Origin: Sphingobacterium olei
GTDB lineage: Bacteria > Bacteroidota > Bacteroidia > Sphingobacteriales > Sphingobacteriaceae
Direction: 5' to 3'
NCBI RefSeq assembly: GCF_005048855.1
Contig: NZ_SUME01000003.1
Coordinates: 62,001-126,000, forward strand
Length of the DNA stretch: 64,000 nucleotides
Shown: positions 1-19,652 of the stretch, piece by piece
Numbering within the stretch: the stretch's first letter is position 1
Layout: each line of letters opens with the position of its first letter
The notes under the pieces: generated by a model
What the model saw: only the letters and a program-made list of their open reading frames with translations
Database searches by the model: none
Told to the model about the DNA's origin: nothing
Translations under genes and position numbers: made by a program

Positions 1-2183
1 TCGTTAGGGCGAGTACGATAGAAGATGCAGGAGCGTTTAATGTAGCCCGGATTAAAGAAGTGGTCCCTACCGTGCAATTATATTCTTCTAATCCGCGTAA
101 CACGACGTTAAATATCAGAGGATTAGGTTCTACTTACGGTTTGACCAACGATGGAATTGATCCAGGGGTCGGTTTTTATTTAGATGGAGTTTATTTGGCA
201 CGTCCCGCCGCAACCTCATTAGACTTTATTGACGTTGAGCAAATAGAGGTACTACGCGGACCACAGGGAACATTATTTGGTAAGAACACCACATCAGGCG
301 CATTTAACATTACATCTCGTCAGCCCGAATTTACACCTAATGCAAATTTTGAATTGAGCTACGGTAACTACGGCTTTATACAGGCTAAAACCTCCTTAAC
401 TGGTCCATTGGTCAAAGATAAGTTAGCTGCCCGCGTTTCCTTTTCAGGAACACAACGTGATGGAACATTATATAACGTCTACTCGGATCGGCAGATCAAT
501 GATATCAATAATTTAGGTGTTAGAGGACAATTGTTATTCACGCCAAACGATAATTTGAAGATATTATTGGCAGGGGATGTCACGGCACAGCGTCCAGACG
601 GCTATGGTTGGGGTGTCGCCGGTGTGGTCGAAAATCAGCGGTCTGAATATAGACAGTTTAATAGCATCATCAAGGATCTGGGATATGAAATTCCGTACAA
701 AAGCGCCTTCGAAAGAAAGGTCGATCTGGATACCCGCTCAAAGGCAGATAACGAATTAGGTGGAGCATCATTAAACGTGGACTATAAAATAGGAAATGGT
801 ACCTTGACTTCTACATCTGCATGGAGATATTGGAACTGGGTGCCATTAAATGATAGGGATTACCTCGGCGTGCCGGCCTATACCATCTCTGCGGGTAATT
901 CGGTTCATGATCAATGGTCACAAGAGTTTCGTTATTCAGGCAATCTCAGTGAGAAGGTAAGTGGTGTAATAGGTGTGTTCGGATTGTGGCAGGATCTAAG
1001 AACAGATCCTGTACATACCGAAGAAGCGGGTGATGCGCTATGGCGATTTCAGCAAAGCAGTGCATCTCAGACACAATGGGCTCCAGGTTTGATCGATAAG
1101 GTAGGTATTCGTACGAAATACGGTATCAAGAGCACCAGTTTGGCCGTGTTCTCTCAAGTAGATTGGGCGATAACCGATAAATTGCATGTGTTGCCAGGAA
1201 TACGCTACAACTATGATAAAAAAGTAGCCAACTACGACCGGACGAAATACATTGATAACAATATCGAATACACAGCGGAGCAACTTGCTGCAGTAAACAG
1301 CATTTATTCCAATCAGACCTTCGATGTTAATGCGGATGCCGGAAATCTGTCGGGACAATTATCCTTGCAGTATAAATTTACACCAAATTACAATACCTAT
1401 GTTACTTATTCGAATAGTTATAAGCCAATAGGTATTAATGTCGGTGGGCTGCCGGTTATAGATGGGCAAGTAGCAACGGATTTAGCCGAGGTAAAACCGG
1501 AGTCCGTAAATCATGTGGAATTTGGCGTAAAAACTAACCCGAGCAGGAATTCCTTCCTAAACCTTACGGTGTATCAAACCAATATCACAGATTATCAAAC
1601 GCAGGTTCAAACACCAGATCCTGGTGTAAACAGAGGATATTTGGCGAATGCAGAAGAAGTTCGGGTAAAAGGATTTGAGTTAGATGGATCTATCCGACCT
1701 TGGAAGTTCCTTCGGTTGAATGGTGCTTTGGCTTATACTGATGGGAAATATGAGAAGTTTACGAATGCACCTGTTCCGTTAGAAGAAGTGGGCGGCGCAC
1801 AGGCATTCAAAGATATTTCAGGAGGTGAATTGCCTGGAATTTCTAAATGGTCTTGGACGCTGGCTGCAGAATTAACAACAAAAGGGAATTTTCTGAACTT
1901 ACAAGGGAATTACTTCTTGGGCACAGATCTTTTTTACCGTTCAAAATTTTCTTCCAGTCCATCCCCCTCGCAATACCTAAACATAGACGCATATGCTTTA
2001 TTGAATGCGCGTGTTGGATTTAGAGCCACCAATGGACTGTCTGCCATCGTATGGAGCCGTAACTTGACGAATAAGGATTATTACGAGCAGCTGCTTGCAG
2101 CACCAGGAAACTTTGGCCAATATGCTGGTGTAATCGGCGATCCGCAAACGTATGGTGTAACGTTGCGCTATAATCTTAAATAA
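1..2183 (+). CDS. TonB-dependent outer-membrane receptor, 5' end outside window
   Basis: The reading frame is already open at base 3 and runs to a TAA at 2181-2183, so the signal peptide and start lie upstream of the window. The visible part begins in the plug domain (STIEDAGAF..., then an IRGLG motif and DGVYLARP), continues with the typical plug end VEQIEVLRGPQGTLFG and a 22-strand-type barrel, and ends in the aromatic-poor LRYNLK. It resembles the siderophore/small-molecule receptor class rather than the SusC class: no SusD follows directly. A cysteine-containing leader ORF begins only 19 bases after its stop and no promoter is visible between them, so it is probably co-transcribed with the SusC gene downstream. 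Substrate unknown; a sulfur compound is an inference from context. Confidence 0.9.
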   Translation, partial: VRASTIEDAGAFNVARIKEVVPTVQLYSSNPRNTTLNIRGLGSTYGLTNDGIDPGVGFYLDGVYLARPAATSLDFIDVEQIEVLRGPQGTLFGKNTTSGAFNITSRQPEFTPNANFELSYGNYGFIQAKTSLTGPLVKDKLAARVSFSGTQRDGTLYNVYSDRQINDINNLGVRGQLLFTPNDNLKILLAGDVTAQRPDGYGWGVAGVVENQRSEYRQFNSIIKDLGYEIPYKSAFERKVDLDTRSKADNELGGASLNVDYKIGNGTLTSTSAWRYWNWVPLNDRDYLGVPAYTISAGNSVHDQWSQEFRYSGNLSEKVSGVIGVFGLWQDLRTDPVHTEEAGDALWRFQQSSASQTQWAPGLIDKVGIRTKYGIKSTSLAVFSQVDWAITDKLHVLPGIRYNYDKKVANYDRTKYIDNNIEYTAEQLAAVNSIYSNQTFDVNADAGNLSGQLSLQYKFTPNYNTYVTYSNSYKPIGINVGGLPVIDGQVATDLAEVKPESVNHVEFGVKTNPSRNSFLNLTVYQTNITDYQTQVQTPDPGVNRGYLANAEEVRVKGFELDGSIRPWKFLRLNGALAYTDGKYEKFTNAPVPLEEVGGAQAFKDISGGELPGISKWSWTLAAELTTKGNFLNLQGNYFLGTDLFYRSKFSSSPSPSQYLNIDAYALLNARVGFRATNGLSAIVWSRNLTNKDYYEQLLAAPGNFGQYAGVIGDPQTYGVTLRYNLK

Positions 2184-2202: not shown

Positions 2203-2301
2203 ATGAACAATACCAACATCATACCAGAAAGGACGTTCTGGAAATCAATAGATTTTATTAATCTCTATTGCCTGTCCCTTCGAATGCGAATGTGTCGCTA
2301 A
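2203..2301 (+). CDS. 32-residue leader peptide ending in RMRMCR (copy 1)
   Basis: An ATG at 2203 preceded by A-rich sequence opens a 32-codon ORF ending at TAA 2299-2301. The peptide has FWKS at residues 12-15, YCL at 22-24 and RMRMCR at 27-32. It aligns without gaps to the ORF at 10861-10959 with 16 of 32 residues identical, and both lie about 125 bases upstream of a SusC gene. The last 23 bases (CGAATGCGAATGTGTCGC-TAA and following AT) are identical in both copies. It sits between the receptor gene and SusC without an obvious promoter of its own, so it would act inside an operon. Too short and too basic for an enzyme; a regulatory leader is the best reading. Function inferred, not known. 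Confidence 0.75.
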   Translation: MNNTNIIPERTFWKSIDFINLYCLSLRMRMCR

Positions 2302-2308
2302 ATCTCCC

Positions 2309-2355
2309 TCCCTTAATATAGCAACAGAAAGGGAAGCCGAGGCTTCCCTATTCTG
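2309..2355 (+). promoter_or_regulatory. Leader hairpin with competing fold (copy 1)
   Basis: Eight bases after the leader stop, TCCCTT (2309-2314) can pair with AAGGGA (2329-2334). The same AGGGAAGC also pairs with GCTTCCCT, extended outward by CAGAA/TTCTG with one bulged A (2325-2355). The two folds exclude each other, as in attenuators. The second stem is not followed by a T-run, so calling it an intrinsic terminator is not justified. The equivalent structure at 10966-11010 differs in loop and in one pair (A-U versus G-U) but keeps the stem. Confidence 0.55.
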
Positions 2356-2543
2356 TTCAATAATGAAACAAGTAATCAATTGGCGTTGGCACTTGCAAGT
2401 ATTCACTATTAAAACGTAATAAAAATATGAAAAAATACGGAGTATTCCGCTATTCTTATATACTTATCCTATCCATATTGAGCTTTCACAGCGTACACGC
2501 TCAAGAGGAACCTAAACCCATCATTAATGCATCGCTTGTAGGA
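2353..2543 (+). repeat. Duplicated 5' cassette, copy 1 (UTR plus SusC signal peptide)
   Basis: From CTGTTCAATAATGAAA through codon 39 of the SusC gene this block matches 11008-11199 with three substitutions and one A insertion/deletion. The flanking SusC coding sequence beyond codon 39 is clearly diverged, so identity stops sharply just after the mature N-terminus. The block contains the perfect 10-base palindrome ACTTGCAAGT in both copies. Confidence 0.85.
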
Positions 2544-5500
2544 ACAGTTGTTAATGCACAAACAAAAGAGCCTATAGCTGGAGCGACGCTACAACTGGAA
2601 GCAGTGACACATAGTGTCACGACCGATAAGTTTGGAAAATTTCAATTCGTTACCGGACAAAAGCTTCCTTTTACGGTAATTGTATCTTATTTGGGGTATG
2701 AAAAGAAAACGTTGGTTATAACGAAATCACCAACTGTCATTGAACTTGCTCCTTCCGAAAGAATTTTAGACGAGACTGTGGTAGTGGGATATACCACGGC
2801 CAAAAGATCAAGTTATACCGGATCGGTAGCGGTGGTGGGTGCTGCAGAATTGGATCGATTACAGATTACCTCTATTGGTAAGGCGTTACAAGGAACCGTT
2901 CCGGGACTTCAATCCATTGCGCAGTCGGGACAGCCTGGAAGCGATGCAGACTTGTATGTGCGTGGCGTCGGTTCTGTTAATGCCTCAACAGCACCACTCT
3001 ACGTTGTTGATGGTATCCCAGGTGCGAACCCTAATAACTTAAACCCGAAAGACATTCAATCTATTTCCGTATTGAAAGATGCCACGGCAAGTGCACTATA
3101 TGGATCGCGTGGTGCTAATGGCGTGATTGTCGTTACAACGAAATCGGGAATCCTAAACTCGAAAACAGCAGTAAATTTCTCGGCCAACTATGGCTACACA
3201 GGTCGTGCGGTGGCAGATTATGAATATTTATCTCCGCAGGAATATTATGAATTACAATGGGAAGCCATCCGTAATACACAGCTGGATCAAGGTAAATCGG
3301 CTACTGATGCAGCGATATATGCAACAGATTATTTGGTCGACGGTTCGCTGAAAGTAAATATCTTTGGCCCGCAATATGCTAAACCTGTAGGTTTAGATGG
3401 CAAATTGGTTGCTGGAGCCACACCTTTGTGGAACGACAACTGGGGTAAAGCGATCTCACGTCCGGGACGTCGCCAGCAATATGACTTGAGTGCAAGTGGC
3501 GGTAGTGCCAATACGAGATATTATTTTTCAGGAGGTTATTTAAATGAAGAAGGTTGGATAAGAACATCCAACTTCGAAAGATATAATGTTCGGACAAACA
3601 TACAGTCAAAAATAAATAATTGGTTTGAAGCAGGGGCAAATGTATCGCTTTCATCGGGTTTTCAACGCTCTCCGAACCAAAGCGATAGCAACACGGGGAA
3701 TTTCCCGAATTTCCAGCGACTTATTTCCAATATTTATCCGATTTACGAGCGTCATCCTGATGGATCGTACATACTAGACGAAGATGGTAATAAAAAATGG
3801 GACTACGGTAGATGGCGTCCCACAACTGCTGTCAGCGGTTCAAATATTCTGGGAAGTGCAGAACACGCCATATCAGGTAGCCGGACAGATGCCGTTTTAT
3901 TGGGAACAAACGCGAGTATTAAGTTTTTTGAAGGGTTGTCTTTGAAGACAACTGCAAATGTGGATTATCGTGCGGGTAGTTCGCATTCATACTCTCATTC
4001 TTATTACAGTACTGGCGTTATCACAGAAGGCGCGGGATCAGCAAGCAGAAGTGCAAGTCGCACGCTTAATTACACGGTAAACAGCTTTCTGAATTATGCT
4101 CTTGATTTGGATAGTAAACACCATGTCAGTTTATTAGCTGGTCCAGAAGTATATGTGGAGAATTCTTCATCTTTGTCTGGTAGCCGTTCCGGTTTTCAAG
4201 TATTGGGGAAAACAGAACCTTCAGCGGGAACCGTAAGCGGCACATTTAATGGAACTTCCAGTGATTACCGCCTGGCCAGTTTGTTAGGTCAGTTAAATTA
4301 CGATTATTTGGGTCGTTATCATTTTTCGACGAGCTTTCGAAGAGATGGTTCTTCTCGCTTTAGCAAACAGTCACGATGGGGTAATTTTTGGTCCGTGGGT
4401 GCCGCATGGAATGTTAAACAGGAAAACTTCTTAAAAGATGTATCTAATATCGACAATCTTAATCTTCGTTTAAGTTATGGAGCACAAGGTAATGATAAGG
4501 TTGGTAATTTTGCCTATGGCGGGTTTTACTCGATCTACAACAGTTTAGATATGTTGGGACTGTTACCCTCTGATCTTCCTACCCCAGAATTGAAATGGGA
4601 GACAAACCTGAACCTCAACTTCGGAGCGGATATTTCCTTGTTCAATAATCGATTAGTAGCCCAAATTGATGTTTTTGATCGACAATCGAGAGATTTGTTA
4701 TTTACGAAACCACTTTCTCCTTCAACAGGTTACGATGGTATAAATGCCAATATCGGTTCCTTGAGTAATCGGGGTATTGATGGACAGATCACTGTTGTCC
4801 CCTTTCGTAATCAAGATTTCCATTGGAATGCGACCATTAATTTTGGACATTACACCAACAAAATAACCAAACTGCCCCAGAAGGAAATACTCACCGGTTC
4901 GATAGGGCAATATGGCAACACAAAGAAAATGGTGGAAGGGGGATCGATTTACGATTTCTACATCAAAGAATGGGCTGGAGTTGACCCCGAAAACGGGAAA
5001 GCCACCTGGTATAAGGATGTTGTTGACGACAGCGGCAATATTACAGGAAGGACCACTACCGCAAATCAAACTGAAGCAACCCCTTATTTTCAGGGAAGCT
5101 CACTTCCCGATCTATATGGTGGTATAAGTAATACCTTTGCCTATAAGGGCTTTGAATTTTCATTCCTTGTATCATACAACATCGGCGGGAAAATTTTTGA
5201 TGGAGATCAACCTATGATTATGCATGTAGGATCTGCACCAGGGCGCAATTGGTCAAAAGAAGCATTGAATCGCTGGACTCCAGAAAACACGGATACAGAT
5301 TTTCCAAGACTCTCTTATGTTTCCGACCCGTGGAATACAATTCCTTCGACACGCTTTTTGTACAGTGCAACACATGCCCGTTTGAAAAATGTTAACCTGT
5401 CTTATAGATTGCCAAATGATTTGGTATCTAGATGGTCTCTCACAGATGTGCGGCTTCGTTTTGTAGGTGAAAATTTGTTGACATTTTATGGACACCAAGG

Positions 5501-5591
5501 ATTGGATCCCGAGCAAACTGTTTCCGGTTCAACGTTTTACCGATATCCTGCACAGAAAGCGTATTCACTCGTACTTAATGTATCATTCTAA
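2427..5591 (+). CDS. SusC-like TonB-dependent transporter (operon 1)
   Basis: Outer-membrane importer subunit that forms the barrel beneath a SusD lid. It has a signal peptide ending at VHAQ (about residue 25), a CarboxypepD_reg-like domain (about 35-110), a TonB-box-like ETVVVGY, a plug with PLYVVDGIPG and SVLKDATASALYGSRGANGV, and a long beta-barrel, 1054 residues in all, normal for SusC. The SusD gene follows after 20 bases. With a TlpA-type thioredoxin and an M14 peptidase downstream, peptide uptake (as in RagAB-type pairs) is more likely than glycan uptake; this is inference. The signal peptide and upstream leader are nearly identical to those of the SusC at 11083. Confidence 0.95.
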   Translation: MKKYGVFRYSYILILSILSFHSVHAQEEPKPIINASLVGTVVNAQTKEPIAGATLQLEAVTHSVTTDKFGKFQFVTGQKLPFTVIVSYLGYEKKTLVITKSPTVIELAPSERILDETVVVGYTTAKRSSYTGSVAVVGAAELDRLQITSIGKALQGTVPGLQSIAQSGQPGSDADLYVRGVGSVNASTAPLYVVDGIPGANPNNLNPKDIQSISVLKDATASALYGSRGANGVIVVTTKSGILNSKTAVNFSANYGYTGRAVADYEYLSPQEYYELQWEAIRNTQLDQGKSATDAAIYATDYLVDGSLKVNIFGPQYAKPVGLDGKLVAGATPLWNDNWGKAISRPGRRQQYDLSASGGSANTRYYFSGGYLNEEGWIRTSNFERYNVRTNIQSKINNWFEAGANVSLSSGFQRSPNQSDSNTGNFPNFQRLISNIYPIYERHPDGSYILDEDGNKKWDYGRWRPTTAVSGSNILGSAEHAISGSRTDAVLLGTNASIKFFEGLSLKTTANVDYRAGSSHSYSHSYYSTGVITEGAGSASRSASRTLNYTVNSFLNYALDLDSKHHVSLLAGPEVYVENSSSLSGSRSGFQVLGKTEPSAGTVSGTFNGTSSDYRLASLLGQLNYDYLGRYHFSTSFRRDGSSRFSKQSRWGNFWSVGAAWNVKQENFLKDVSNIDNLNLRLSYGAQGNDKVGNFAYGGFYSIYNSLDMLGLLPSDLPTPELKWETNLNLNFGADISLFNNRLVAQIDVFDRQSRDLLFTKPLSPSTGYDGINANIGSLSNRGIDGQITVVPFRNQDFHWNATINFGHYTNKITKLPQKEILTGSIGQYGNTKKMVEGGSIYDFYIKEWAGVDPENGKATWYKDVVDDSGNITGRTTTANQTEATPYFQGSSLPDLYGGISNTFAYKGFEFSFLVSYNIGGKIFDGDQPMIMHVGSAPGRNWSKEALNRWTPENTDTDFPRLSYVSDPWNTIPSTRFLYSATHARLKNVNLSYRLPNDLVSRWSLTDVRLRFVGENLLTFYGHQGLDPEQTVSGSTFYRYPAQKAYSLVLNVSF

Positions 5592-5611
5592 TAAAAATTA
5601 CTCATCAGACT

Positions 5612-7114
5612 ATGAAACTGAAATTTAGTTATATATTGACTGCTTTGGCACTATTAACATCCTGCAGCGACGATTTTTTTGATACCGCACCAGCGACACA
5701 GATTACCACGTCGGAAGTATTCTCTTCGGAAGATAATATCAATGCTTTCGTCAATGGTGCGATTCGTTACCTTTTGGAAAATAGTACCTCGCAGGATAAT
5801 CCAGGGCTTCCTACAATTTTTCTTACGCACGATGTAATGGGCGAAGATGCCATCGCCCGGGATGGAAGATATGGATTCCGTGATTCGTATCCATATCGCG
5901 ATCCCTTCGACAATACAACTCGTCGTGCGCTGTTTTTTTGGACATTGCAGTATACATCGATTGATCATGCTAACAATATCATCGCCAACATTCCGATTAA
6001 TGAAGACAGCAAACCGAGTTTAAAATATCTTAAAGGACAAGCCTATGCACTACGAGGGCACAATTATTTAAACTTGGTGCGACAATATCAGTTTACGTAT
6101 GCGAAAGATGCAAATGCTAAGGCCGTCCCGATTTACACAGAACCTACAACTCCAAGTACAGAGCCTAGACCGCTCTCTACAGTAAAAGAAGTATACGATC
6201 AGATCATAGGCGATCTAACGGAAGCAGAAAAACTATTGCCTGGATTTGAGCGCAATGTGAAAAATCGCCCCGATCTTAACGTCGTTTACGGACTACTGGC
6301 CCGTACCTATCTCACACTCGAAAACTGGGATCTTGCTGAAGCGTATGCTGCTAAAGCACGTATAGGGTATCCTATTATGACTGCCGAACAATACACCCAA
6401 GGGTTCAGTGATGTGAGTAATCCCGAATGGATTTGGGGACATCCACAAACACAAGCTCAAAATAAAGGAGGTGCATCGTTTTTAGCTTATATAGAGACCA
6501 CACCCTATGCTACCGATGCCAACGGGACGAATTTGTATTATGGGTACAACAGTATCATCCCTGATCCTCATTTTATTGCATTGTTTGCTGATGGAGACAT
6601 ACGCAAGTCATTGTTCGAAATTGCCAAGCAACCCGCGGAAGCGATTTATAGGTCTTACCGGTATAAAAAATTCCGAAATAAATATCCCAATCATGACGGA
6701 CATATTATTTTGATGCGTGCTTCAGAACAGCTTCTTATTGAGGCCGAGAGTAAAGCGAGGCTGGATAATGTAACAGGGGCGATAGAGACATTAAACGAAT
6801 TGCGGCGAAAGAGAAATCTTTCCGATTTGTCCGCCAATGACTTTAATAAGACGACGATAATTGAAGAGATTCTGCTCGAACGCCGGAAGGAACTTTGGGG
6901 CGAGGGCTTTCGTTTATATGATATCCTGAGGACGCAAACTGCACCCGTGAGAAAGGAAACTACGGAAACGTTTGTTGACAATGCAGGAAACACAGTTGGG
7001 GTATTAGGACATTGGATTACAAAGTTTCCGGACAATTCAAATTTGGTGCCTAATAGTAAGTATTATCTTTTCCCGATTCCATTAAATGAAATCAGCACCA
7101 ATCTCAATTTGTAA
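5612..7114 (+). CDS. SusD/RagB-like outer-membrane lipoprotein (operon 1)
   Basis: Surface lipoprotein that captures substrate for the SusC partner encoded just upstream. The N-terminus has a lipobox (LLTSC, Cys at residue 18) followed by the acidic SDDFFD stretch common for surface-exported Bacteroidota lipoproteins. The TPR-like SusD fold is supported by the ALRGHNYLNLVRQYQ helix and by the C-terminal signature IEEILLERRKELWGEGFRLYDILR. At 500 residues it has family length. Substrate cannot be read from sequence. Confidence 0.93.
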   Translation: MKLKFSYILTALALLTSCSDDFFDTAPATQITTSEVFSSEDNINAFVNGAIRYLLENSTSQDNPGLPTIFLTHDVMGEDAIARDGRYGFRDSYPYRDPFDNTTRRALFFWTLQYTSIDHANNIIANIPINEDSKPSLKYLKGQAYALRGHNYLNLVRQYQFTYAKDANAKAVPIYTEPTTPSTEPRPLSTVKEVYDQIIGDLTEAEKLLPGFERNVKNRPDLNVVYGLLARTYLTLENWDLAEAYAAKARIGYPIMTAEQYTQGFSDVSNPEWIWGHPQTQAQNKGGASFLAYIETTPYATDANGTNLYYGYNSIIPDPHFIALFADGDIRKSLFEIAKQPAEAIYRSYRYKKFRNKYPNHDGHIILMRASEQLLIEAESKARLDNVTGAIETLNELRRKRNLSDLSANDFNKTTIIEEILLERRKELWGEGFRLYDILRTQTAPVRKETTETFVDNAGNTVGVLGHWITKFPDNSNLVPNSKYYLFPIPLNEISTNLNL

Positions 7115-7139
7115 ATAGAAACAAACAAAGTATATACAT

Positions 7140-8120
7140 ATGAAAAAGATTTTAATATTAATTGCAATCGTTTTTGTCCTCTCATCGGGCAAGAACCACA
7201 ATAACCTAAATATTAAAGGTAAGGTTGAAGGAGTTCAGTCCGGCAAGGTGTATTTGCAGAAGTTTTACAATAAGATGTTCTTCGTTATTGACTCCGCAAG
7301 TATCGTGAATGGAGAATTCCAATTTGCTAAAAATGTAGAACTCCCCGAAATATATGGGCTGACGTTGGATACCACTAAAAGTACATACCTGGTTTTTTTG
7401 GATGAAAATCCGGTAACTGTACAATTGGACACATCAACCTATTACCGAAATACGGTAGTGAGCGGATCCAAATTACAGGATCAATATGTGGAATACGGAA
7501 AGCAACGGGGTGTCAAAATCGATGAATTTATAAAAGCTAATCCAGCATCATTGGTTTCTGCTTATGTCTTTTATCGATACTATTCATACCGTCTGTCCCC
7601 GGAAGAAATTAAATCTAATATCCAATTACTGAATCCTTCTTTAAGAGAAACACCTTATGTACGGGTTTTGACCGAATTGACAGAAACGCTTGAAACGGTT
7701 GCAGTAGGCAAGTCTGCCCCTGATTTCACTGCAAACGACACAGAAGGAAAACCTCGTGCTTTCTCAGCTCACTTGGGTAAGGGCTATGTGCTTTTGGATT
7801 TTTGGGCGGCTTGGTGTGGACCATGCCGAAGGGAAAATCCAAATATCGTGAAAGCCTATAATAAGTACAAAGAGAAAGGATTTGATATTGTCGCCGTGTC
7901 TTTAGATAAAAATAAGAATAGCTGGTTAGACGCGATTGCAAAAGATAATTTGACTTGGGCACATGTTTCGGATCTATTGTTTTGGGATAGTGAGCCAGCA
8001 AAATTATATGGCGTAAGAGCCATTCCTGCCAACTTTCTGATAGACAAAAACGGTGTTATTGTCGCGAAAAATCTACGTGGGGAAGATTTGGATAAAACTT
8101 TGGGAGAATTGTTAGACTAA
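7140..8120 (+). CDS. TlpA-type thiol-disulfide oxidoreductase with DUF4369-like N-domain
   Basis: Periplasmic redox protein. An N-terminal hydrophobic segment (about residues 3-16) is followed by a beta-rich DUF4369-like domain (about 22-110), a linker, and a C-terminal thioredoxin fold beginning GKSAPDF and carrying the active site W225-C-G-P-C229. The cis-proline loop reads RAIPANFLID. 326 residues. It is 25 bases downstream of susD and 15 bases upstream of the M14 peptidase, so it belongs to operon 1. Such proteins reduce disulfides in the periplasm; here it could act on cystine-containing peptides brought in by the SusCD pair (inference). Confidence 0.92.
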   Translation: MKKILILIAIVFVLSSGKNHNNLNIKGKVEGVQSGKVYLQKFYNKMFFVIDSASIVNGEFQFAKNVELPEIYGLTLDTTKSTYLVFLDENPVTVQLDTSTYYRNTVVSGSKLQDQYVEYGKQRGVKIDEFIKANPASLVSAYVFYRYYSYRLSPEEIKSNIQLLNPSLRETPYVRVLTELTETLETVAVGKSAPDFTANDTEGKPRAFSAHLGKGYVLLDFWAAWCGPCRRENPNIVKAYNKYKEKGFDIVAVSLDKNKNSWLDAIAKDNLTWAHVSDLLFWDSEPAKLYGVRAIPANFLIDKNGVIVAKNLRGEDLDKTLGELLD

Positions 8121-8135
8121 TTTATCCGGATAAAC

Positions 8136-10637
8136 ATGAGAGTATTATCGTTATTAACCATCTGTTTTTTGTGGCTATCTGTTAGCGGTGTTAAAGCGGA
8201 AAAAATAGATTATTTTTTTGGTTCTGAAATTGTATTTGATCCTAAAATCCCGTCTCCTCAGGAATTTTTAGGTTATGAAATCGGAAGTCGTGTCACCGAA
8301 CATAGTCGGGTCAATTCTTATTATGAAAAACTCGCGGAACTTTCGGGTCGTACATCCCTAGTAGAAATAGGCCGTACGCACGAAAACCGTAAAATCTATG
8401 TGCTGATTGTTTCGTCTGCAGACAATATTAAAAACTTGGAGCGTATAAAAGATACACGTAAGAAAGTGCGTCAAGGAGAGCGCGTCACTGGTCCACTTGT
8501 TGTATTTTTAGGAAATACGGTGCATGGTAACGAAACGTCATCTGCCGAAGCAGCGTTGCTGTCTGCATACTATTTTGTTGCTGCGCAAAACGATTTTGTG
8601 AAGAAGCAACTCGAAGAAGGGATCTATTTCATCGATCCTGTCCGTAACCCCGACGGGCAAGAACGTTTCGCTTCGTGGGTAAACGCGAATTCAAGTGTGA
8701 ATTTTTATAACACGTCTTCTATCGATAGGGAGCATACGGAAATATGGCCTCGGGGCAGGGGTAATCACTACTGGTTTGACCTGAACCGTGATTGGGTGAA
8801 TATCGTGCATCCCGAGAGTAAGGCACGAGTTTCTCTGTATCAGGATTGGCTTCCACACGTGCAAGCCGACCACCACGAAATGGGGACAAATAGTACATTT
8901 TTTTTCGAACCGACAGATCCCGATGGAAACGAATCTCGGTTTGTACCGCAATCTACATACAAACTTAATAGGCTTTTTGCTGACCATTTTGCCAGGGCAT
9001 TGGATAAAATAGGATCTTTTTATTACACAAAAGAGTCCTATGATAATAAAAACCCAAATTTTGGTTCGACCTACCCTGATTATAATGGGGGTGTAGGGAT
9101 ACTGTTTGAGCAAGGGTCTTCTAGAGGGCTACGTCAAGAATCTAATAACGGTTTGGTGACACTTGAGCATACCGTTCGAAATCAGTTGGTAACCAGTATC
9201 GCCACGGTCGATGCCGCTCATGCGAACAAAGACGGTTTATATGATTTGCAAAAAGAATTCTTCAATCCAGCACGCTCTGGTAAAGAGGCTTCGAAATCTT
9301 ATATTATCGGTGACAACTATGATATATCCCGTTTACACAAATTTGTAAAACTGTTACTCGATCACAAGCTGGAGGTATATGAAAATGCAAATGACGTTAC
9401 CATTGACAATGTGAAGTATGAAAAGGGTAAATCGTATGTCATTCCGGTAGGACAACCCAACAGCGCATTGGTTGGAATTATCTTTGATGATAAGAAGGAT
9501 TATGCAGATGCAAGTAAATTAGGTTATGGGGCCGGATTTTCAGTTGCATACTCTACAGGTCTTTCTTTCGCGATTTCAACACCATCGCGTGGAGCGAAGG
9601 TGGAAACATTGCCACAAAAGGCTGTGGACAATTTGCAACAATCGGAGTATGCTTATTTGGTAGATTTTCGCGATTCAAAGAGTCAACATTTGCTGTTGAG
9701 GCTGTTGGAAGAAGGTGTTTTGCTAACTACTGCTTCCAAACCATTCTCTATCAATACCAATAATGGAGCTAGGGACTTTTCGTATGGTACGTTGCTTATC
9801 CCAGTTGCAAATCAATCCATTCCATCCGCAGAGTTGTTTGCCAAATTAAAAAAATTAAGTGAGCAAGAAGAGGTCGACCTGATTCCTATATCGACCGGTT
9901 TCAGCGTTAAGGGAGTAGATTTAGGGAGTAGTGCGTTTAGAAAAATAGACAAACCAAAGGTTCTTGTTGTAACCGGAGAGGGGGTAACATCTACGGAAGC
10001 AGGTGAAGTTTGGCATCTGTTCGATCAGGTCTTGAAGTATCCTTTGGTACGCGTAGAATCTAATGTCTTTGGACGGGCGGATCTTCAACAATTTAATCGA
10101 ATTGTATTGGTAAGTGGTGACTATTCTTTTTTGAATCCAGAGGGTATTGAAAATTTAAAAAATTGGATTAAGAATGGGGGGACACTTATTACGATTAATC
10201 GAGCATCCCAATGGGCGATTAGCAACAAGATAGGTTTCGAAAGGCGGGTAGAAGCAAATGAATCTGACGAAAAGCAAAGAACCGGAAGTATTCCGACATC
10301 TATCTTTCAAACCAAAGTTAAATTGGAGCATCCGTTGGCGTTCGGGTTAACCAGCGCATATTTACCTGTAGTCCGCGAGGGATTTTCGTTTATTTCTTCG
10401 TCAGAAGTTGGAAATGTCGTTGCTGCTTTTACTGATGATCCATTGCTCAATGGCTATATCTCGACCAATCAATTACAAAGTTTAAAAGGTTCTGTTTCTC
10501 TAGCAGTAAATTCCTTTGGCAGAGGAAATATAGTTCTTTTTGCCGATAACCCTTTGTTTCGTGGAAGTTGGGATGGAACGAGTCGCACGTTTATTAATGC
10601 TATCCTCTTTGGTGGAGGTACTTCGGCAAGATACTGA
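8136..10637 (+). CDS. M14-family zinc carboxypeptidase-like protein
   Basis: Secreted or periplasmic metallopeptidase of the M14 family. Signal peptide about residues 1-21. Zinc ligands are visible as H130-G-N-E133 and H246/H247 (QADHHEM), and the catalytic glutamate as E325 in ILFEQG. The peptidase domain covers roughly 50-370; the rest (about 400-833) resembles the glutamine-amidotransferase-like C-terminal part found in large Bacteroidota M14 proteins (LVVTGEGVTSTEAGEVWHLF, then an ITINRAS stretch). It is the last gene of operon 1 and is followed by a strong terminator. It probably trims peptides for use with the SusCD pair; substrate not known. Confidence 0.92.
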   Translation: MRVLSLLTICFLWLSVSGVKAEKIDYFFGSEIVFDPKIPSPQEFLGYEIGSRVTEHSRVNSYYEKLAELSGRTSLVEIGRTHENRKIYVLIVSSADNIKNLERIKDTRKKVRQGERVTGPLVVFLGNTVHGNETSSAEAALLSAYYFVAAQNDFVKKQLEEGIYFIDPVRNPDGQERFASWVNANSSVNFYNTSSIDREHTEIWPRGRGNHYWFDLNRDWVNIVHPESKARVSLYQDWLPHVQADHHEMGTNSTFFFEPTDPDGNESRFVPQSTYKLNRLFADHFARALDKIGSFYYTKESYDNKNPNFGSTYPDYNGGVGILFEQGSSRGLRQESNNGLVTLEHTVRNQLVTSIATVDAAHANKDGLYDLQKEFFNPARSGKEASKSYIIGDNYDISRLHKFVKLLLDHKLEVYENANDVTIDNVKYEKGKSYVIPVGQPNSALVGIIFDDKKDYADASKLGYGAGFSVAYSTGLSFAISTPSRGAKVETLPQKAVDNLQQSEYAYLVDFRDSKSQHLLLRLLEEGVLLTTASKPFSINTNNGARDFSYGTLLIPVANQSIPSAELFAKLKKLSEQEEVDLIPISTGFSVKGVDLGSSAFRKIDKPKVLVVTGEGVTSTEAGEVWHLFDQVLKYPLVRVESNVFGRADLQQFNRIVLVSGDYSFLNPEGIENLKNWIKNGGTLITINRASQWAISNKIGFERRVEANESDEKQRTGSIPTSIFQTKVKLEHPLAFGLTSAYLPVVREGFSFISSSEVGNVVAAFTDDPLLNGYISTNQLQSLKGSVSLAVNSFGRGNIVLFADNPLFRGSWDGTSRTFINAILFGGGTSARY

Positions 10638-10742
10638 TCCTAATAAATTATAATAGGATCGTCGATTATACAGGATGATTGAAGTATTGGAAAATCCAAT
10701 GTAGTACGTAGTGAATATTACTTGTTCTAATAAATGAATTAA

Positions 10743-10787
10743 ATATTTTTTAAAAGTCTATTAATTTAGTAGACTTTTAAAAAATAT
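10743..10787 (+). terminator. Perfect 18-bp inverted repeat ending operon 1
   Basis: Arms 10743-10760 and 10770-10787 are perfect reverse complements with a 9-base loop; A/T runs flank the core on both sides, so it could terminate in either direction. It lies 105 bases after the M14 stop and directly before the promoter of operon 2. Confidence 0.85.
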
Positions 10788-10790
10788 ATT

Positions 10791-10798
10791 TATATTTG
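10791..10798 (+). promoter_or_regulatory. TATATTTG promoter -7 element of operon 2
   Basis: A perfect TAnnTTTG Bacteroidota -7 element. Transcription would start near 10805, giving about 55 bases of 5' UTR before the leader ORF at 10861. The -33 region is not clearly conserved. Confidence 0.6.
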
Positions 10799-10860
10799 TG
10801 GTGTGATCATTGAAATAGATTGATAGCGAGTTGTTTACTAAATCAAAATAAATTAACACA

Positions 10861-10959
10861 ATGAGAAAAACTTACCAAAACTCAACGGATTTTTTCTGGA
10901 AATCTTCAGCAAATAGGAATTTTTATTGCTTACCTTTTCGAATGCGAATGTGTCGCTAA
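10861..10959 (+). CDS. 32-residue leader peptide ending in RMRMCR (copy 2)
   Basis: ATG at 10861 after AACACA, stop TAA at 10957-10959. Residues 12-15 are FWKS, 22-24 YCL and 27-32 RMRMCR, at exactly the same positions as in the ORF at 2203-2301. The N-terminal half differs (16 of 32 residues identical overall) while the end is identical also at DNA level. It lies between a TAnnTTTG promoter and the SusC of the sulfatase operon, 123 bases before the SusC start. Position, length and the conserved C-terminus with Cys next to last point to a regulatory leader peptide. The Cys codons suggest cysteine or Cys-tRNA as a signal; this is inference. Confidence 0.78.
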   Translation: MRKTYQNSTDFFWKSSANRNFYCLPFRMRMCR

Positions 10960-10965
10960 ATTTCT

Positions 10966-11010
10966 CTCCCTTATAGAAACAGAAAGGGAGGCCTAAGCTT
11001 CCCTCATCTG
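10966..11010 (+). promoter_or_regulatory. Leader hairpin with competing fold (copy 2)
   Basis: CTCCCTT (10966-10972) can pair with AAGGGAG (10984-10990). Alternatively AGGGAGGC (10985-10992) pairs with GCTTCCCT (10997-11004), extended outward by CAGA (10980-10983) and TCTG (11007-11010). The two folds share the AGGGAG strand and exclude each other. The upstream strand would lie under a ribosome paused at the leader stop. Confidence 0.55.
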
Positions 11011-11199
11011 TTCAATAATGAAAACAAGTAATCAATTGGCGTTGGCACTTGCAAGTATTCACTATTAAAACGTAATAAAAATATGAAAAAATACGGAGTA
11101 TTCCGCTATTCTTATATACTTATCCTATCCATATTGAGCTTTCACAGCGTACAGGCTCAAGAGGAACCTAAACCCATCATTAATGCGTCGCTTGTAGGT
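11008..11199 (+). repeat. Duplicated 5' cassette, copy 2 (UTR plus SusC signal peptide)
   Basis: Matches 2353-2543 with three substitutions and one extra A. It covers the end of the leader hairpin, the spacer with the ACTTGCAAGT palindrome, and the first 39 codons of the SusC gene. The similarity drops sharply afterwards. Confidence 0.85.
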
Positions 11200-14133
11200 G
11201 TTCTCGTGGATGCGGATACGAAGGAACCCATAGATGGCGCAACGGTACAGCTTGAAGCGGTTACACATAGTGTAAAGACAGACCGGGATGGGAAATTCCA
11301 GTTCGTGACCGGTCAGAAGTTGCCGTTTACATTGATCATCACATATGTAGGTTATCAAACAAAGACTATTGTCATTTCTCAATCTCCAACAGTCATTGAA
11401 CTGAAATCTGATGATAAAAACTTGGATGAAGTGGTTGTGGTAGGATATGGTACCATAAAGCGTAAAGACTTGACAGGTTCTGTTGCATCGTTACCAAGTG
11501 ATTTACTGAAACAAAATGTATCATCGTTGGATCAGACGTTGAAAGGAGGGATTTCAGGGGTTCAGGTTACACAGACATCAGGACAACCGGGAGGTGGGGT
11601 GAGCATTCGAATTCGTGGAGGAGCTTCTATTCAAGGTGGGAACGAGCCACTCTATGTTATAGACGGTTTTCCTATTTATAACCAGACAGAAAGTACTGGT
11701 GTAGGGTCTGGAGCATCAATTAACCCATTAGCGAGTATCAATCCTTCTGACATCGAGAGTGTTGAAGTGTTGAAAGACGCTTCTGCAACAGCGATTTATG
11801 GTTCTCGTGGGGCGAACGGTGTGGTATTGGTTACAACAAAAAAAGGTGTGACGGGGCGGGCCAAATTAACGTATGATGGGAGCTTTGGTTTACAAAAGGT
11901 ACTGAAAAAAATTGATGTATTAGGTGCCAAGGATTTCGCAATTTTAAGAAATGAAGTCTTGTATGATGCAAATCCATCATTAGGAACAAATCAATACTTG
12001 ACCCAATCGCAAATCGATGCTTTAGGGGAAGGTACAAATTGGCAAAATGAGGCTTTCAAAACAGCTCCTATTCGTAATCACCAATTGTCCCTGACAGGTG
12101 GTGGAGATCAAGTGCAATACTTTCTTGGTGCAAATTACTTTGACCAAGAGGGTGTAATTGTAAATACAGATTTTAAGCGGCTAGGGTTTAGAAGTAATAT
12201 CAACGCTAAACCCTATGAAAGGCTGAGTGTCGGAGCCAATCTGTCCATAAATCGGACTCAGGGTCAGGTTGCCCCATCAGGCATCGTAAATTCATTATTG
12301 ATCATGCCTCCTACCGCCACTATTTATGATGCTGATGGTTCATATACATTACGAAATCCTTTTGAAAATATTTTTGCAAATCCAATCGCAACATTGTTAG
12401 AAACTACGAATCAGGAAGTCGTATTACGTACACTCGGGACAACCTTTGCACAATACGATATACTTGACGGACTACAGTTAAAAGTTCTATTGGGTGTAGA
12501 CCTGAATAATAGAACAAACAAGTATTATCTACCATCTTACATTTATGAGGGATCGGGTAGCAGTGGTAGGGCCAACCTTGGTAATTTGGATTATTATTCC
12601 TGGCTGAATGAGAATACATTATCCTATAACAAATCTTTTAACAACCATAATTTAAATGTATTGTTGGGATTTACCCAGCAAGAAGCGCGTAATGCCGTGT
12701 TTGGTGCCGGGGCAGAAAATTTTGTCACAGATGAATTGTTGTACAACAATTTACAAAGTGGATCAACATTATTAAGACCGACTTCAGGAACCTACGAATG
12801 GGTGCTTCATTCTTTTTTAAGCCGTATTAATTACAATTATCAAAATAAATACTATGTATCAGCAAGTTTAAGAAGAGATGGTAGCTCTCGGTTTGGTGCG
12901 GAAAACAAGTGGGGTAATTTTCCATCTTTAGCATTCTCGTGGCGAGCCAGTCAAGAAGGTTTTATTAGGGACAATCTATCCTTTCTGAATGATCTTAAAC
13001 TACGCACAAGCTTTGGTACGACCGGGAATCTAGAGATCGGGCAATATCAATCTTTATCGACATTGTATTCTTTAAATTACCTTATCGGAGGTAACATACT
13101 TACAGGCTTCACCTCTCAACGGATCCCCAACGAGAATTTGGGATGGGAAACAACATATCAATATGATGCAGGAATTGATTTTGCATTGTTCAACAGTAGA
13201 CTACAATTCACTTTTGACTGGTATTATAAGAAAACGGAGGATCTGTTGCTGAATGTAGAGATCCCATGGACTTCGGGATACGCAAGTTCGCTGCAAAACT
13301 ATGGTTCAGTTCAGAACAAGGGGGTCGAGTTTAATGTAAAGAGTAAGAATATCGATAATGACTTCTCTTGGTCGACAGACCTAAACCTATCTTTTAACCG
13401 GAATAAAGTATTGTCGATAGGAAGTGGAACGTCATACATTACAGGGAACTACATTATAAAGGTAGGTAAACCTTTAGGAACATTTTACGGGACAGCGACA
13501 GACGGGATTTTACAGGTAGGTGAAGAAGCTGAAAAAGGAGATTTCACGGGTAATGCTACTCCGAAGGCCGGAGATCGACTATATAAAGATATCGATGGCG
13601 ACGGAAAATTTACGACGGCGAATGACCGTACAGTCATTGGTAATGCGCAGCCAAACTATATTTTTGGTTTTACCAATACATTCAACTACAAAGGTTTCGA
13701 TTTGAATGTCCTTTTACAAGGTTCGGTGGGCAATGAGATATTGAATATCAATAGACAGAATCTGGAAATGTTCACCGGTCAACAAAATGCTTCAACAGAT
13801 GCGTTGCAACGTTGGACTGCAGGTAATCCTTCTCAATCATATCCCCGTGCAAAATTAGATCCTGCTCCTGTTTTTTCGGATCAGTTTGTTGAGGATGGTT
13901 CTTTTGTAAGATTGAAATCACTCCAGTTCGGATATACAGTTCCGAAGACATGGATTCACAGATCATTGTCGAATTTAAGGTTCTATGTTGTTGGTCAAAA
14001 TCTTTTGACATGGACAAAATACGCCGGCTTTGATCCAGAAGTAACTTCGGGAAGCAATGTGCAAATTGGTTCAGATGCAGGAATCTATCCAGCTTCAAAG
14101 TCATTTTCATTTGGAGCATCAATAACATTTTAA
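11083..14133 (+). CDS. SusC-like TonB-dependent transporter (sulfatase operon)
   Basis: Outer-membrane importer of operon 2, 1016 residues. Signal peptide ends at VQAQ; a CarboxypepD_reg-like domain occupies about 35-105; a TonB-box-like EVVVVGYGT precedes the plug with PLYVIDGFPIYN and VEVLKDASATAIYGSRGANGV; the rest is barrel. The first 39 residues differ from the SusC at 2427 by one residue, while plug and barrel are only distantly similar. Co-location with two sulfatases and an FGE suggests it imports a sulfated substrate. Confidence 0.95.
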   Translation: MKKYGVFRYSYILILSILSFHSVQAQEEPKPIINASLVGVLVDADTKEPIDGATVQLEAVTHSVKTDRDGKFQFVTGQKLPFTLIITYVGYQTKTIVISQSPTVIELKSDDKNLDEVVVVGYGTIKRKDLTGSVASLPSDLLKQNVSSLDQTLKGGISGVQVTQTSGQPGGGVSIRIRGGASIQGGNEPLYVIDGFPIYNQTESTGVGSGASINPLASINPSDIESVEVLKDASATAIYGSRGANGVVLVTTKKGVTGRAKLTYDGSFGLQKVLKKIDVLGAKDFAILRNEVLYDANPSLGTNQYLTQSQIDALGEGTNWQNEAFKTAPIRNHQLSLTGGGDQVQYFLGANYFDQEGVIVNTDFKRLGFRSNINAKPYERLSVGANLSINRTQGQVAPSGIVNSLLIMPPTATIYDADGSYTLRNPFENIFANPIATLLETTNQEVVLRTLGTTFAQYDILDGLQLKVLLGVDLNNRTNKYYLPSYIYEGSGSSGRANLGNLDYYSWLNENTLSYNKSFNNHNLNVLLGFTQQEARNAVFGAGAENFVTDELLYNNLQSGSTLLRPTSGTYEWVLHSFLSRINYNYQNKYYVSASLRRDGSSRFGAENKWGNFPSLAFSWRASQEGFIRDNLSFLNDLKLRTSFGTTGNLEIGQYQSLSTLYSLNYLIGGNILTGFTSQRIPNENLGWETTYQYDAGIDFALFNSRLQFTFDWYYKKTEDLLLNVEIPWTSGYASSLQNYGSVQNKGVEFNVKSKNIDNDFSWSTDLNLSFNRNKVLSIGSGTSYITGNYIIKVGKPLGTFYGTATDGILQVGEEAEKGDFTGNATPKAGDRLYKDIDGDGKFTTANDRTVIGNAQPNYIFGFTNTFNYKGFDLNVLLQGSVGNEILNINRQNLEMFTGQQNASTDALQRWTAGNPSQSYPRAKLDPAPVFSDQFVEDGSFVRLKSLQFGYTVPKTWIHRSLSNLRFYVVGQNLLTWTKYAGFDPEVTSGSNVQIGSDAGIYPASKSFSFGASITF

Positions 14134-14152: not shown

Positions 14153-15622
14153 ATGAATGGTAAGAATATTTTAATCGGATTTATCGCTTTGGCTACCTTG
14201 TTTTCATGTTCCAAATTGGAGGAAAAACCAGACTCTATTTTGGTGTCCGAACAATTCTATTTAAATGAGGAACAAGCAATATCAGCAGTAACAGGTACGT
14301 ATCGTAAACTATATGAAAGTGGCCAGTCGCTTTACAACAGTTTGTTTCAAATAGGTGTTGAAATGGCAACAGATGATTACGAAGCAGGGCCGCGTGCACG
14401 TAACGCACATGTACGTGCCATTAGTGGATTAACACACGACCCGTCAAATGATCGAATGGAACAGCTCTGGAAGCAGAGTTATGATGCGATAAACGCATCG
14501 AATCTGAATATAAAGAATATCAGTGAAATGACGGAGGGTCAGATTACTTCCACTGTCAGGGTACGTCTTGTTAACGAAGCAAAGTTCTTAAGAGCATTAC
14601 ATTATTTCAATTTAGTAAGATGGTTTGGCGATGTTCCTCTGGTAACTGAACCGGTATCAGTGTTAAGTCCGGAGCAATTGTATGTGTCAAAAGCCTCTGA
14701 AGAGGATGTTTATACACAAATCGTAACCGATTTGTCCGATGCGGAGAGTTTGCCGAATTATCTTGAATATGGAGATAAAGACAAGGGAAGGGCTTCACGA
14801 GGCTCTGCAAAGAGTCTATTGGCCAAAGTTTATTTGACGCAGAAGAAATGGGAATTGGCCCGAGCTAAGGCGAAAGATGTCATTGACAATGAAAAATATG
14901 ATTTATTCGAGGATTTCGTGGATGTGTTTGCGGTGGATAAAAAAAATGGGAAAGAACATATCTTCTCAGCACAATTTCAGGGAAATAGCGGATATCATGG
15001 GAATAGTTTAGCGAGTCGTTCTGCACCGGCAGATATTCCGGGGATCAACGGAGATTACGCCGATGCCCTACATGTAGAAGGAGGCTTGTATGAATCTTTT
15101 GAAGTGCAGGACGAACGTTTGCCTATTACATTTACAGTAGGCAAAGTATCTCCGACTAATAATCAATATTATGCGTTGAGTACACCGCAGTTTAACAAAT
15201 ATTACGATGAAAGTGTCATCGGGAACCAGAGCCAATCATCTAAAAATCTACCCATAATTCGCTACGCTGAAATTTTGTTGATATATGCAGAAGCGGATAA
15301 CGAGTTGACTTCAGTACCATCTAATAGTGCTATTGAATCCCTGAATAAAGTTCGAGGAAGGGCGAATGCAGCGCTTCATGTAGGAGCGGGTTCTAAAGAT
15401 GTTTTCCGTGAGTTGGTATTTGAAGAAAGGCGTAAAGAGCTGGTATTCGAGTATCAACGTTGGTTCGACTTAGCGAGAAGAGGGGCGGAGTATTATGTAA
15501 CTAAGCTGCGTGCTGCAGGTAAAACGCAAGCAGCGGCAAGACACATCCATTTCCCTACACCACAGCGAGAATTGAATTTGAACCCTAATTTAAAACAACA
15601 CCCGGATTGGGTAAATTATTAA
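14153..15622 (+). CDS. SusD/RagB-like outer-membrane lipoprotein (sulfatase operon)
   Basis: Substrate-binding lipoprotein partner of the SusC ending 19 bases upstream. Lipobox TLFSC with Cys at residue 20. SusD fold markers include NEAKFLRALHYFNLVRWFG and the C-terminal ELVFEERRKELVFEYQRWFDLARRG. 489 residues, family length. Ten bases separate it from the first sulfatase gene. Confidence 0.93.
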   Translation: MNGKNILIGFIALATLFSCSKLEEKPDSILVSEQFYLNEEQAISAVTGTYRKLYESGQSLYNSLFQIGVEMATDDYEAGPRARNAHVRAISGLTHDPSNDRMEQLWKQSYDAINASNLNIKNISEMTEGQITSTVRVRLVNEAKFLRALHYFNLVRWFGDVPLVTEPVSVLSPEQLYVSKASEEDVYTQIVTDLSDAESLPNYLEYGDKDKGRASRGSAKSLLAKVYLTQKKWELARAKAKDVIDNEKYDLFEDFVDVFAVDKKNGKEHIFSAQFQGNSGYHGNSLASRSAPADIPGINGDYADALHVEGGLYESFEVQDERLPITFTVGKVSPTNNQYYALSTPQFNKYYDESVIGNQSQSSKNLPIIRYAEILLIYAEADNELTSVPSNSAIESLNKVRGRANAALHVGAGSKDVFRELVFEERRKELVFEYQRWFDLARRGAEYYVTKLRAAGKTQAAARHIHFPTPQRELNLNPNLKQHPDWVNY

Positions 15623-15631
15623 TCAATAGCT

Positions 15632-17221: not shown

Positions 17222-17235
17222 TCAAGACTATTTTT

Positions 17236-17294
17236 ATGAAACCTGCATGAATTACCATTCACAAACAGATAGAAGCAATTCATGCAAGTTTCAT
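17236..17294 (+). repeat. 18-bp inverted repeat between the two sulfatase genes
   Basis: Arms 17236-17253 and 17277-17294 match as reverse complements with one mismatch and a 23-base loop. A T-run follows at about 17299-17304. It could be an mRNA processing or partial termination site that lowers expression of the distal sulfatase, thioredoxin and FGE genes. It also masks an in-frame upstream extension of the second sulfatase. Confidence 0.6.
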
Positions 17295-17320
17295 TGCCAT
17301 TTTTAAAAAAAAATATTCCA

Positions 17321-18946: not shown

Positions 18947-18956
18947 TCATAATACG

Positions 18957-19652
18957 ATGAAAACAATATTATTAGCATTATTTATTACTTGGCAACTGGG
19001 ATGTTTCGCACAGGAGGAGAGTTTCAAGATCAGTGCAGAAGATTTTTATTCAAAAATCAAAAAGGAGCAATCGCCTCAAATATTAGACGCCCGCTCAGAA
19101 GAAGAGTATGAACAAGCACATTTTCCTGAAGCGATTCAGATTGATCAAAAATCAGATGATTTTTCGCAAAAAGTCGGAAGTCTCGATCACAAACGACCTG
19201 TTTTTATTTATTCCATACAAACGGGACGTTCTTCCAGGTTAGCTGAGCATCTGAGTGAGCAATCTTTTAAGGAGGTTTATGTGCTGTCTCCTGGTATATC
19301 TGCATGGGTGGGTTCGGGATATCCTTTGGTTGTTTCCCAAACAAATAATAAAAGGGTAACACTACAAGCATTTAAGGATGTCTTAGCATCTAATGACTAC
19401 GTATTGGTAAATTACGGTTCAAATTATTGTGCCCCATGTAAGAAAGTTGTGCCGGTTCTTGATTCACTACGAAGCGAATCTACAGATCTAAAAATTTTCA
19501 AGATAGAGATTGATGTGAATCCGGATATTATAAAGGAAAATGAAATTAAGACTATCCCTACCACAATTTTGTATAAGTCGGGGAATCCTGTTTGGGCAAA
19601 AACCGGTATACCAACTGTTGATGAAATCCGAATAGCGAAGAATGAAAATTAG
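18957..19652 (+). CDS. Rhodanese-like domain (no catalytic Cys) fused to thioredoxin
   Basis: Secreted two-domain protein. I chose the ATG at 18957, which starts a signal peptide ending near FAQ; an ATG at 18936 overlaps the sulfatase gene. Residues about 24-125 form a rhodanese-like fold (ILDARSEEEYEQAHFPEA, then VLSPGISAWVGSGYP), but the active loop reads IYS-IQTGR at 84-91 with no cysteine, so sulfur transfer by the usual mechanism is excluded. Residues about 130-230 are a thioredoxin with C158-A-P-C161 and the cis-Pro loop TIPTTI. It overlaps the FGE start by 11 bases, suggesting coupled translation. A role as reductant for FGE or for sulfatase cysteines in the periplasm is my inference. 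Confidence 0.88.
   Translation: MKTILLALFITWQLGCFAQEESFKISAEDFYSKIKKEQSPQILDARSEEEYEQAHFPEAIQIDQKSDDFSQKVGSLDHKRPVFIYSIQTGRSSRLAEHLSEQSFKEVYVLSPGISAWVGSGYPLVVSQTNNKRVTLQAFKDVLASNDYVLVNYGSNYCAPCKKVVPVLDSLRSESTDLKIFKIEIDVNPDIIKENEIKTIPTTILYKSGNPVWAKTGIPTVDEIRIAKNEN

Follow-up and report, generated by a model that had tools for sequence, protein, structure and literature searches.

Two short open reading frames (ORFs) of Sphingobacterium olei raise the question why peptides that differ over most of their length should end identically, just ahead of two SusC genes. We analyzed the stretch of 64,000 nucleotides that contains both (the window; positions are counted from its first letter). A preliminary description had reported two 32-aa ORFs with shared residues and identical terminal DNA, and we could confirm this. 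Leader 1 (2203–2301, plus strand; MNNTNIIPERTFWKSIDFINLYCLSLRMRMCR) and leader 2 (10861–10959, plus strand; MRKTYQNSTDFFWKSSANRNFYCLPFRMRMCR) have FWKS (12–15), YCL (22–24) and the C-terminus RMRMCR (27–32) in common. Their last 21 nt (CGAATGCGAATGTGTCGCTAA) are identical, whereas the first 78 nt, i.e. the leader bodies, show only 54% identity. A third copy of 32 aa, leader 0 (MKTNYLNREFYFWNSTDLINLYCLSMRMRMCS), has the end RMRMCS and is located some 0.6 kb ahead of the window's first letter; the region thus comprises three leader-receptor units in a row. The genes and end elements are:

1–2183, plus strand: 3' part of the TonB-receptor gene governed by leader 0.
2281–2301, plus strand: conserved end element of leader 1, CGA-ATG-CGA-ATG-TGT-CGC-TAA, with the core ATG-CGA-ATG-TGY-NNN-stop.
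2427–5591, plus strand: SusC A, a TonB-dependent receptor with a CarboxypepD_reg-like N-domain.
5612–10637, plus strand: operon A after SusC A, with SusD A (5612–7114), a thioredoxin-like/DUF4369 protein (7140–8120) and an M14 peptidase (8136–10637).
10939–10959, plus strand: conserved end element of leader 2, identical to that of leader 1.
11083–14133, plus strand: SusC B.
14153–20715, plus strand: operon B after SusC B, with SusD B, two sulfatases, a rhodanese-thioredoxin protein and a sulfatase-modifying factor.

The likeness of the two ORFs might be a functionless by-product of a duplication of the receptor cassette, and the 5' parts of SusC A and SusC B are indeed 81% identical over 512 nt. 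Identical ends behind strongly diverged bodies speak against this explanation, to which we assign next to no probability. It was ruled out by the occurrence of the same end, behind unrelated bodies, in dozens of species. The pattern RMRMC(R/S)-stop matched 17 of 94 Sphingobacterium genomes, and the reversed-pattern control gave 0 matches. With MRMC-X-stop we obtained about 120 matches in 69 of these genomes versus 11 control matches. Matched loci were fetched and a receptor gene was demanded behind the ORF, which yielded a curated set of 51 leaders; a second count with a different filter gave 52 leaders in 46 genomes. Examples outside the duplicated cassette, on which the preliminary description had made its case depend, are therefore plentiful: the family has more than 50 members in at least 46 of the 94 Sphingobacterium genomes, about half of the species searched, and extends to relatives. 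The modal length is 32 aa (33 of 51 curated leaders; 13 of 24 sequence-similarity clusters), with shorter exceptions of 15–22 aa. A fixed distance to SusC had also been proposed. Within the window this holds, with 125 nt (leader 1) and 123 nt (leader 2) to the SusC ATG, but across the family the spacing to the receptor ranges from 49 to 212 nt (mostly 112–127).

Genera with the exact core are Sphingobacterium, Olivibacter and a third genus of Sphingobacteriaceae. A phylum-wide family was dropped, as pattern searches in 395 Bacteroidota genomes, about 100 of them of the same class, gave matches at background level. Most loci were gathered via the motif itself, and the end variation described below refers to genomes with a pattern match. 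When the N-terminal domain of the receptor was used in a tblastn search over the collected loci, 60 of the 73 genes found were located behind an MRMC leader. Receptor homologues without such a leader were distant (29–43% identity), with the exception of one in Olivibacter (52%). This gene is preceded by a 33-aa ORF, MKTNLQPSLSTCLNVNIHYLHVTWRRMPSGCCC-stop (L102:9110–9211, minus strand), which ends RRMPSGCCC and has an operator-like site before it. A Cys-Cys-Cys-stop end is what a cysteine-codon sensor predicts.

The RMRMCR end named in the preliminary description does recur, but the conserved unit proved to be ATG-CGA-ATG-TGY-NNN-stop, i.e. M-R-M-C plus one free residue (M-R-M-C-X). M, M and C were set by the search pattern and their invariance is no evidence; the third base of the Arg codon and the final codon were left open. 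All 51 curated leaders use CGA for this Arg, with other CGN codons permitted by the search, while CGA accounts for 20% of the CGN codons in the genes of the window. The last residue can be R, C, S, I, L, Y, K, N, V or A, and TAA, TAG and TGA are all present as stop codons. Synonymous and nonsynonymous changes, proposed earlier as a test, gave a divided result: end, frame and length are clearly held, but the leader body is nearly free, with a pooled pN/pS of 0.69 that is close to neutral.

Cys codons are enriched outside the motif as well. In frame they make up 3.3% of the leader-body codons, compared to 1.2% and 1.7% in the other frames (p = 0.006); in the proteins of the window Cys accounts for 0.4%. 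Cys occupies position -10 in 9 of 27 representatives and forms the C-terminus in 7 of 30. Most leaders contain one or two Cys codons and no run. Furthermore the leader bodies are rich in C and poor in G, with a skew of +0.23 (p = 5e-5 for leader plus 25 nt versus other upstream regions). The recurrence, the Cys enrichment and the CCC variant support the earlier proposal that these ORFs are regulatory leader peptides with Cys codons as possible sensors. The invariant CGA may slow the ribosome ahead of the Cys codon or be part of an arrest motif. We also considered that CGA reports sulfur status through tRNA thiolation, s2C32 in tRNA-Arg(ICG) blocking the decoding of CGA. The s2C32-modified tRNA-Arg1(ICG) of E. 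coli is unable to wobble-bind CGA (PMC5372741), and the S. olei genome contains tRNA-Arg(ACG) genes. However, the C32 thiolase TtcA was not found: in this 99.99%-complete genome the sole match was far below the cut-off, in a 444-aa frame that is probably the related TilS. This highly improbable explanation was dropped.

We then asked what places the leaders in a sulfur context. Upstream of leader 2 two promoter elements can be distinguished:

10753–10779, no strand: palindromic operator AAAGTCTATTAATTTAGTAGACTTTTA, also present before the sulfate-assimilation operon.
10791–10798, plus strand: -7 box of the leader 2 promoter, of the Bacteroidota type, TATATTTG.

The -7 consensus of Bacteroidota is TAnnTTTG. 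Leader promoters have a palindrome in common (consensus AAAATCTACTAAATTAGTAGACTTT), usually 18–19 nt ahead of TATATTTG, and the -7 box lies about 47–86 nt from the leader. Leader 1 is intra-operonic, 19 nt behind the TonB-receptor gene, and has no operator of its own. AATCTACTAAATTAGTAGACTT is a putative protein-binding sequence. An operator matrix derived from the leader promoters alone scored 18.4 bits in the promoter of the organism's own sulfite reductase-cysG-cysH-cysD-cysN operon (genes named by sequence and a PAPS-reductase search), which is the best non-leader site in 1.2 Mb of the S. olei genome. No other site in the window scored above 8.4 bits. The operator is also found before the Olivibacter leader, before the oxidoreductase gene of a YeiH operon in one species and, in weaker form, before the leaders of a different Sphingobacteriaceae genus (two genomes). 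Judged by this shared site, the operator common to leaders and sulfate assimilation presumably sets transcription in sulfur shortage.

The receptors behind the leaders are of the SusC/TonB type with one N-terminal domain, and sulfatase operons are frequent among them: the order SusC-SusD-sulfatase-sulfatase was found in 9 of 16 loci of 19 kb. Other leader loci contain a rhodanese/beta-lactamase-fold gene or a molybdopterin oxidoreductase gene, and behind three leaders a TonB receptor is accompanied by a YeiH-type transporter. Operon A is no obvious sulfur operon. The link to sulfur made in the preliminary description is thus supported by the operator shared with the cys operon, the sulfatase operons, the enrichment of Cys codons and the poly-Cys leader.

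Between leader and SusC the window contains the following candidate RNA elements:

2305–2314, plus strand: pyrimidine segment following the stop codon of leader 1; it shows partial complementarity to the 5' arm of the hairpin downstream and is a candidate half of an antiterminator (single-locus p = 0.13).
2330–2349, plus strand: candidate terminator hairpin AGGGAAGC-CGAG-GCTTCCCT, followed by a weak U-rich tail.
2369–2395, plus strand: hairpin CAAGT..CAATTGGCGTTGGC..ACTTG, with 37 nt between its GTTGG end and the start of SusC A.
10965–10971, plus strand: TCTCCCT behind leader 2, complementary to AGGGAGG, the 5' arm of the hairpin that follows (p = 0.01).
10985–11004, plus strand: hairpin AGGGAGGC-CTAA-GCTTCCCT, not flagged as terminator-like.
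11025–11051, plus strand: hairpin ahead of the start of SusC B, with CAATTGGCGTTGG as its core.

This arrangement is typical of the major subgroup, in which a pyrimidine-rich stretch at about +4 to +12 after the leader stop is followed at about +21 to +35 by a hairpin, AGGGGAAGC/GCUUCCCCU, whose 5' arm is complementary to the stretch. In 18 representatives the complementarity between segment and 5' arm scored 238 versus 206 ± 9.4 in dinucleotide shuffles, and 0 of 300 shuffles reached the observed score; the 3' arm gave no complementarity signal in the same set. The pair is missing in several lineages (e.g. the L003 group, the leaders ahead of an 863-aa receptor, the 15-aa leaders), and the U tracts behind the hairpin are weak. 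The second hairpin, with the CAATTGGCGTTGG core, is the element that keeps a narrow distance, 31–38 nt before the SusC start. Single folds give a stem in most copies, and in many species such a hairpin is also located 26–43 nt ahead of the leader start. In a rigid alignment the covariation of its outer stem did not exceed every shuffle because the stem register varies. The alignment of the entire leader-SusC spacer was too poor for a useful consensus structure.

Could the conserved end act as an RNA element, by pairing or protein binding, with the ORF being incidental? CGA is constant at the nucleotide level, and apart from one G-G mismatch ATGCGAAT is able to pair with the CAATTGGCGTTGG hairpin loop. 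Pairing of ATGCGAATGTG with downstream RNA as the cause of the invariant CGA was nevertheless rejected: the overall mean z of -1.28 stems from the shared hairpin, and loci with a different downstream sequence gave no signal, yet kept CGA. Moreover, the last codon and all three stops vary while frame, start and length are kept, and Cys is enriched in frame, making this explanation improbable.

With a probability of roughly 55% we regard the leaders as translated and as mediating, through the ribosome, a cysteine- (sulfur-) responsive attenuation that gates SusC/TonB-receptor operons for sulfur scavenging. What we observed is the anatomy, the recurrence, the Cys-codon enrichment, the shared operator and the complementarity above shuffles; translation, stalling, termination, the direction of the response and the sensed signal are inferred. 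Points that weigh against this reading are the nearly neutral leader body, the small number of Cys codons in most leaders, the weak U tracts with a leader 2 hairpin that is not flagged as a terminator, the lineages lacking segment and hairpin, and an operon A with no obvious relation to sulfur. A ribosome translating the leader would always meet the Cys codon of ATG-CGA-ATG-TGY-X-stop among the last codons. If Cys-tRNA is sufficient, it would proceed to the stop codon and hide the pyrimidine segment, which spans about +4 to +12. The GGGGAAGC/GCUUCCCC hairpin could then form, or Rho could reach the C-rich leader, and transcription would end before SusC by either route. When Cys-tRNA is scarce the ribosome would halt at the Cys codon, 6 nt earlier, so that the segment could pair with the 5' arm of the hairpin, or Rho would be kept off, and SusC would be made. 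If its footprint has the usual size, the ribosome would extend to about +4 when the Cys codon occupies the A site and to about +10 when it stands at the stop codon; only in the latter case would it therefore hide the segment.

Several of the same observations could also be read as an arrest peptide, in which the nascent M-R-M-C and a slow CGA stall the ribosome on a sulfur metabolite without any shortage of Cys-tRNA, and Rho or the hairpin then decides on SusC. The end is strictly kept and the body free, the last residue is as free as an A-site residue would be, and the leaders contain more C than G. There is also a precedent in CruR, a uORF before a TonB receptor with the C-terminal arrest motif RAPP and an involvement of Rho (PMC9426467). 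The codon-level constraint on CGA can be counted in its favor too, but constraint on synonymous codons is unusual for such peptides. In addition the Olivibacter variant RRMPSGCCC lacks MRMC, and Cys codons enriched outside the motif would be needless for a pure arrest motif. We consider an arrest peptide possible, but rather unlikely.

CruR (DUF2946) of Bordetella pertussis is copper-responsive and encodes an exported protein of 145 residues with CXXC and RAPP; a composition rich in C and poor in G accompanied Rho-dependent termination there (PMC9426467). The Sphingobacterium leaders resemble it in their position before a TonB-dependent receptor, the conserved C-terminal motif and the C-rich region, and termination at CruR has been proposed to be ribosome-dependent. 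They differ in being about 32 aa long, in lacking CXXC and RAPP and in being tied to sulfur genes instead of copper.

In classical attenuators (trp, his and others) the ribosome on the leader senses specific codons and mutually exclusive RNA pairings follow. The leaders described here agree with attenuation leaders in having a short 5' ORF kept in frame across species and enriched in Cys codons. In contrast to the classical systems, there are three segments, not four, the terminator-like hairpin would be favored when a ribosome at the stop codon hides segment 1, and control would act on import rather than on biosynthesis.

No Rfam family matched the window at gathering score, no NCBIfam family was found for five leaders at E = 0.01, and our literature search found no paper naming such a leader. 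Within the same phylum, the 5' regions of Flavobacterium psychrophilum (PMC9723704) and of Bacteroides thetaiotaomicron (PMC7366714) are reported to contain candidate leader peptides; the excerpts available of this work concern amino-acid biosynthesis operons and unvalidated sORFs and mention no MRMC motif, SusC or sulfur link. The MRMC leaders therefore look like a previously undescribed family that would work like a cysteine attenuator. More tentatively, AUG-CGA-AUG-UGY (M-R-M-C), closing a leader of set length, might constitute a novel minimal motif for ribosome arrest or codon timing by which sulfur status is read. Import by SusC/TonB receptors, rather than biosynthesis, would then be gated by cysteine, as part of a sulfur regulon of Sphingobacterium that has an operator of its own and repeats a CAAUUGGCGUUGG hairpin before both leader and receptor start.

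In Bacteroidota, a phylum in which Shine-Dalgarno initiation is rarely used, nutrients enter mainly through SusC/TonB receptors, whose control is usually ascribed to ECF sigma factors, hybrid two-component systems and small RNAs. A sulfur-tied leader-peptide switch at receptors across much of the genus would add a further layer of control and would help to explain when the cells turn to sulfate esters and other organic sulfur. The MRMC end provides a compact sequence signature for locating sulfur-scavenging operons, and the invariant CGA together with the set length poses a testable puzzle of translation.

Candidate cysteine leaders have been described in actinobacteria, where they precede cys operons and contain a run of Cys codons close to their end; Rho is suspected there and clear terminators are missing (PMC1262725). 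Like those of Sphingobacterium, they are short ORFs upstream of sulfur genes whose Cys codons lie close to the stop. The actinobacterial leaders, however, precede biosynthesis genes, whereas those of Sphingobacterium precede outer-membrane receptors and are distinguished by the M-R-M-C-X end, the invariant CGA, the modal length of 32 aa and, in one subgroup, the pair of hairpin and complement. As judged by the Cys run the Sphingobacterium leaders fall outside the actinobacterial type: one or two Cys codons are the rule, and an end of three is seen in the Olivibacter variant alone. Homologous leaders with Cys runs, also ending RMRMCS, were found on two MAG contigs (labelled Bacteroidota and Prolixibacteraceae). 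As these lack the operator they may be of convergent origin; one of them precedes a MetY-type enzyme of Cys/Met metabolism.

The two leader-SusC units are 81% identical over 512 nt (window 2236-2747 vs 10894-11402). This stretch starts inside the leaders and runs into the SusC coding sequence, and its spacer and signal peptide parts are near-identical between both units. This similarity suggests a duplication or gene conversion. In one species (locus L092:4625-5870), the second leader, ending in RMRMCR, is followed by only a 298-aa open frame at the place expected for a full SusC gene; perhaps a recent deletion left the leader behind.

In many species the leader transcript has a hairpin with the core CAATTGGCGTTGG at its 5' end, ahead of the leader start. 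The hairpin is repeated before the SusC start at a similar distance, and copies in the window lie at:

Window 2369-2395, hairpin
Window 11025-11051, hairpin

The hairpin matched no Rfam family.

The palindrome AAAATCTACTAAATTAGTAGACTTT has the look of an operator for a sulfur regulator not yet described. It was noted at:

Window 10753-10779, palindrome
L080:5511-5537, palindrome
L094:14070, palindrome
L028:7872, palindrome

It stands upstream of leaders and of the sulfate-assimilation (cys) operon. In the YeiH operon of one species it precedes the oxidoreductase gene, and in Olivibacter it also lies ahead of a stretch without gene assignment.

Homologous ORFs of 42-43 aa were observed on two MAG contigs labeled Bacteroidota/Prolixibacteraceae. 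They contain CCC/CCCC runs and likewise end in RMRMCS. Behind these ORFs lie a porin-PstS-PstC gene set and, at one of the two, the gene for a MetY-type enzyme:

L033:3872-3892, minus strand, ORF with RMRMCS end
L038:3937-3957, plus strand, ORF with RMRMCS end
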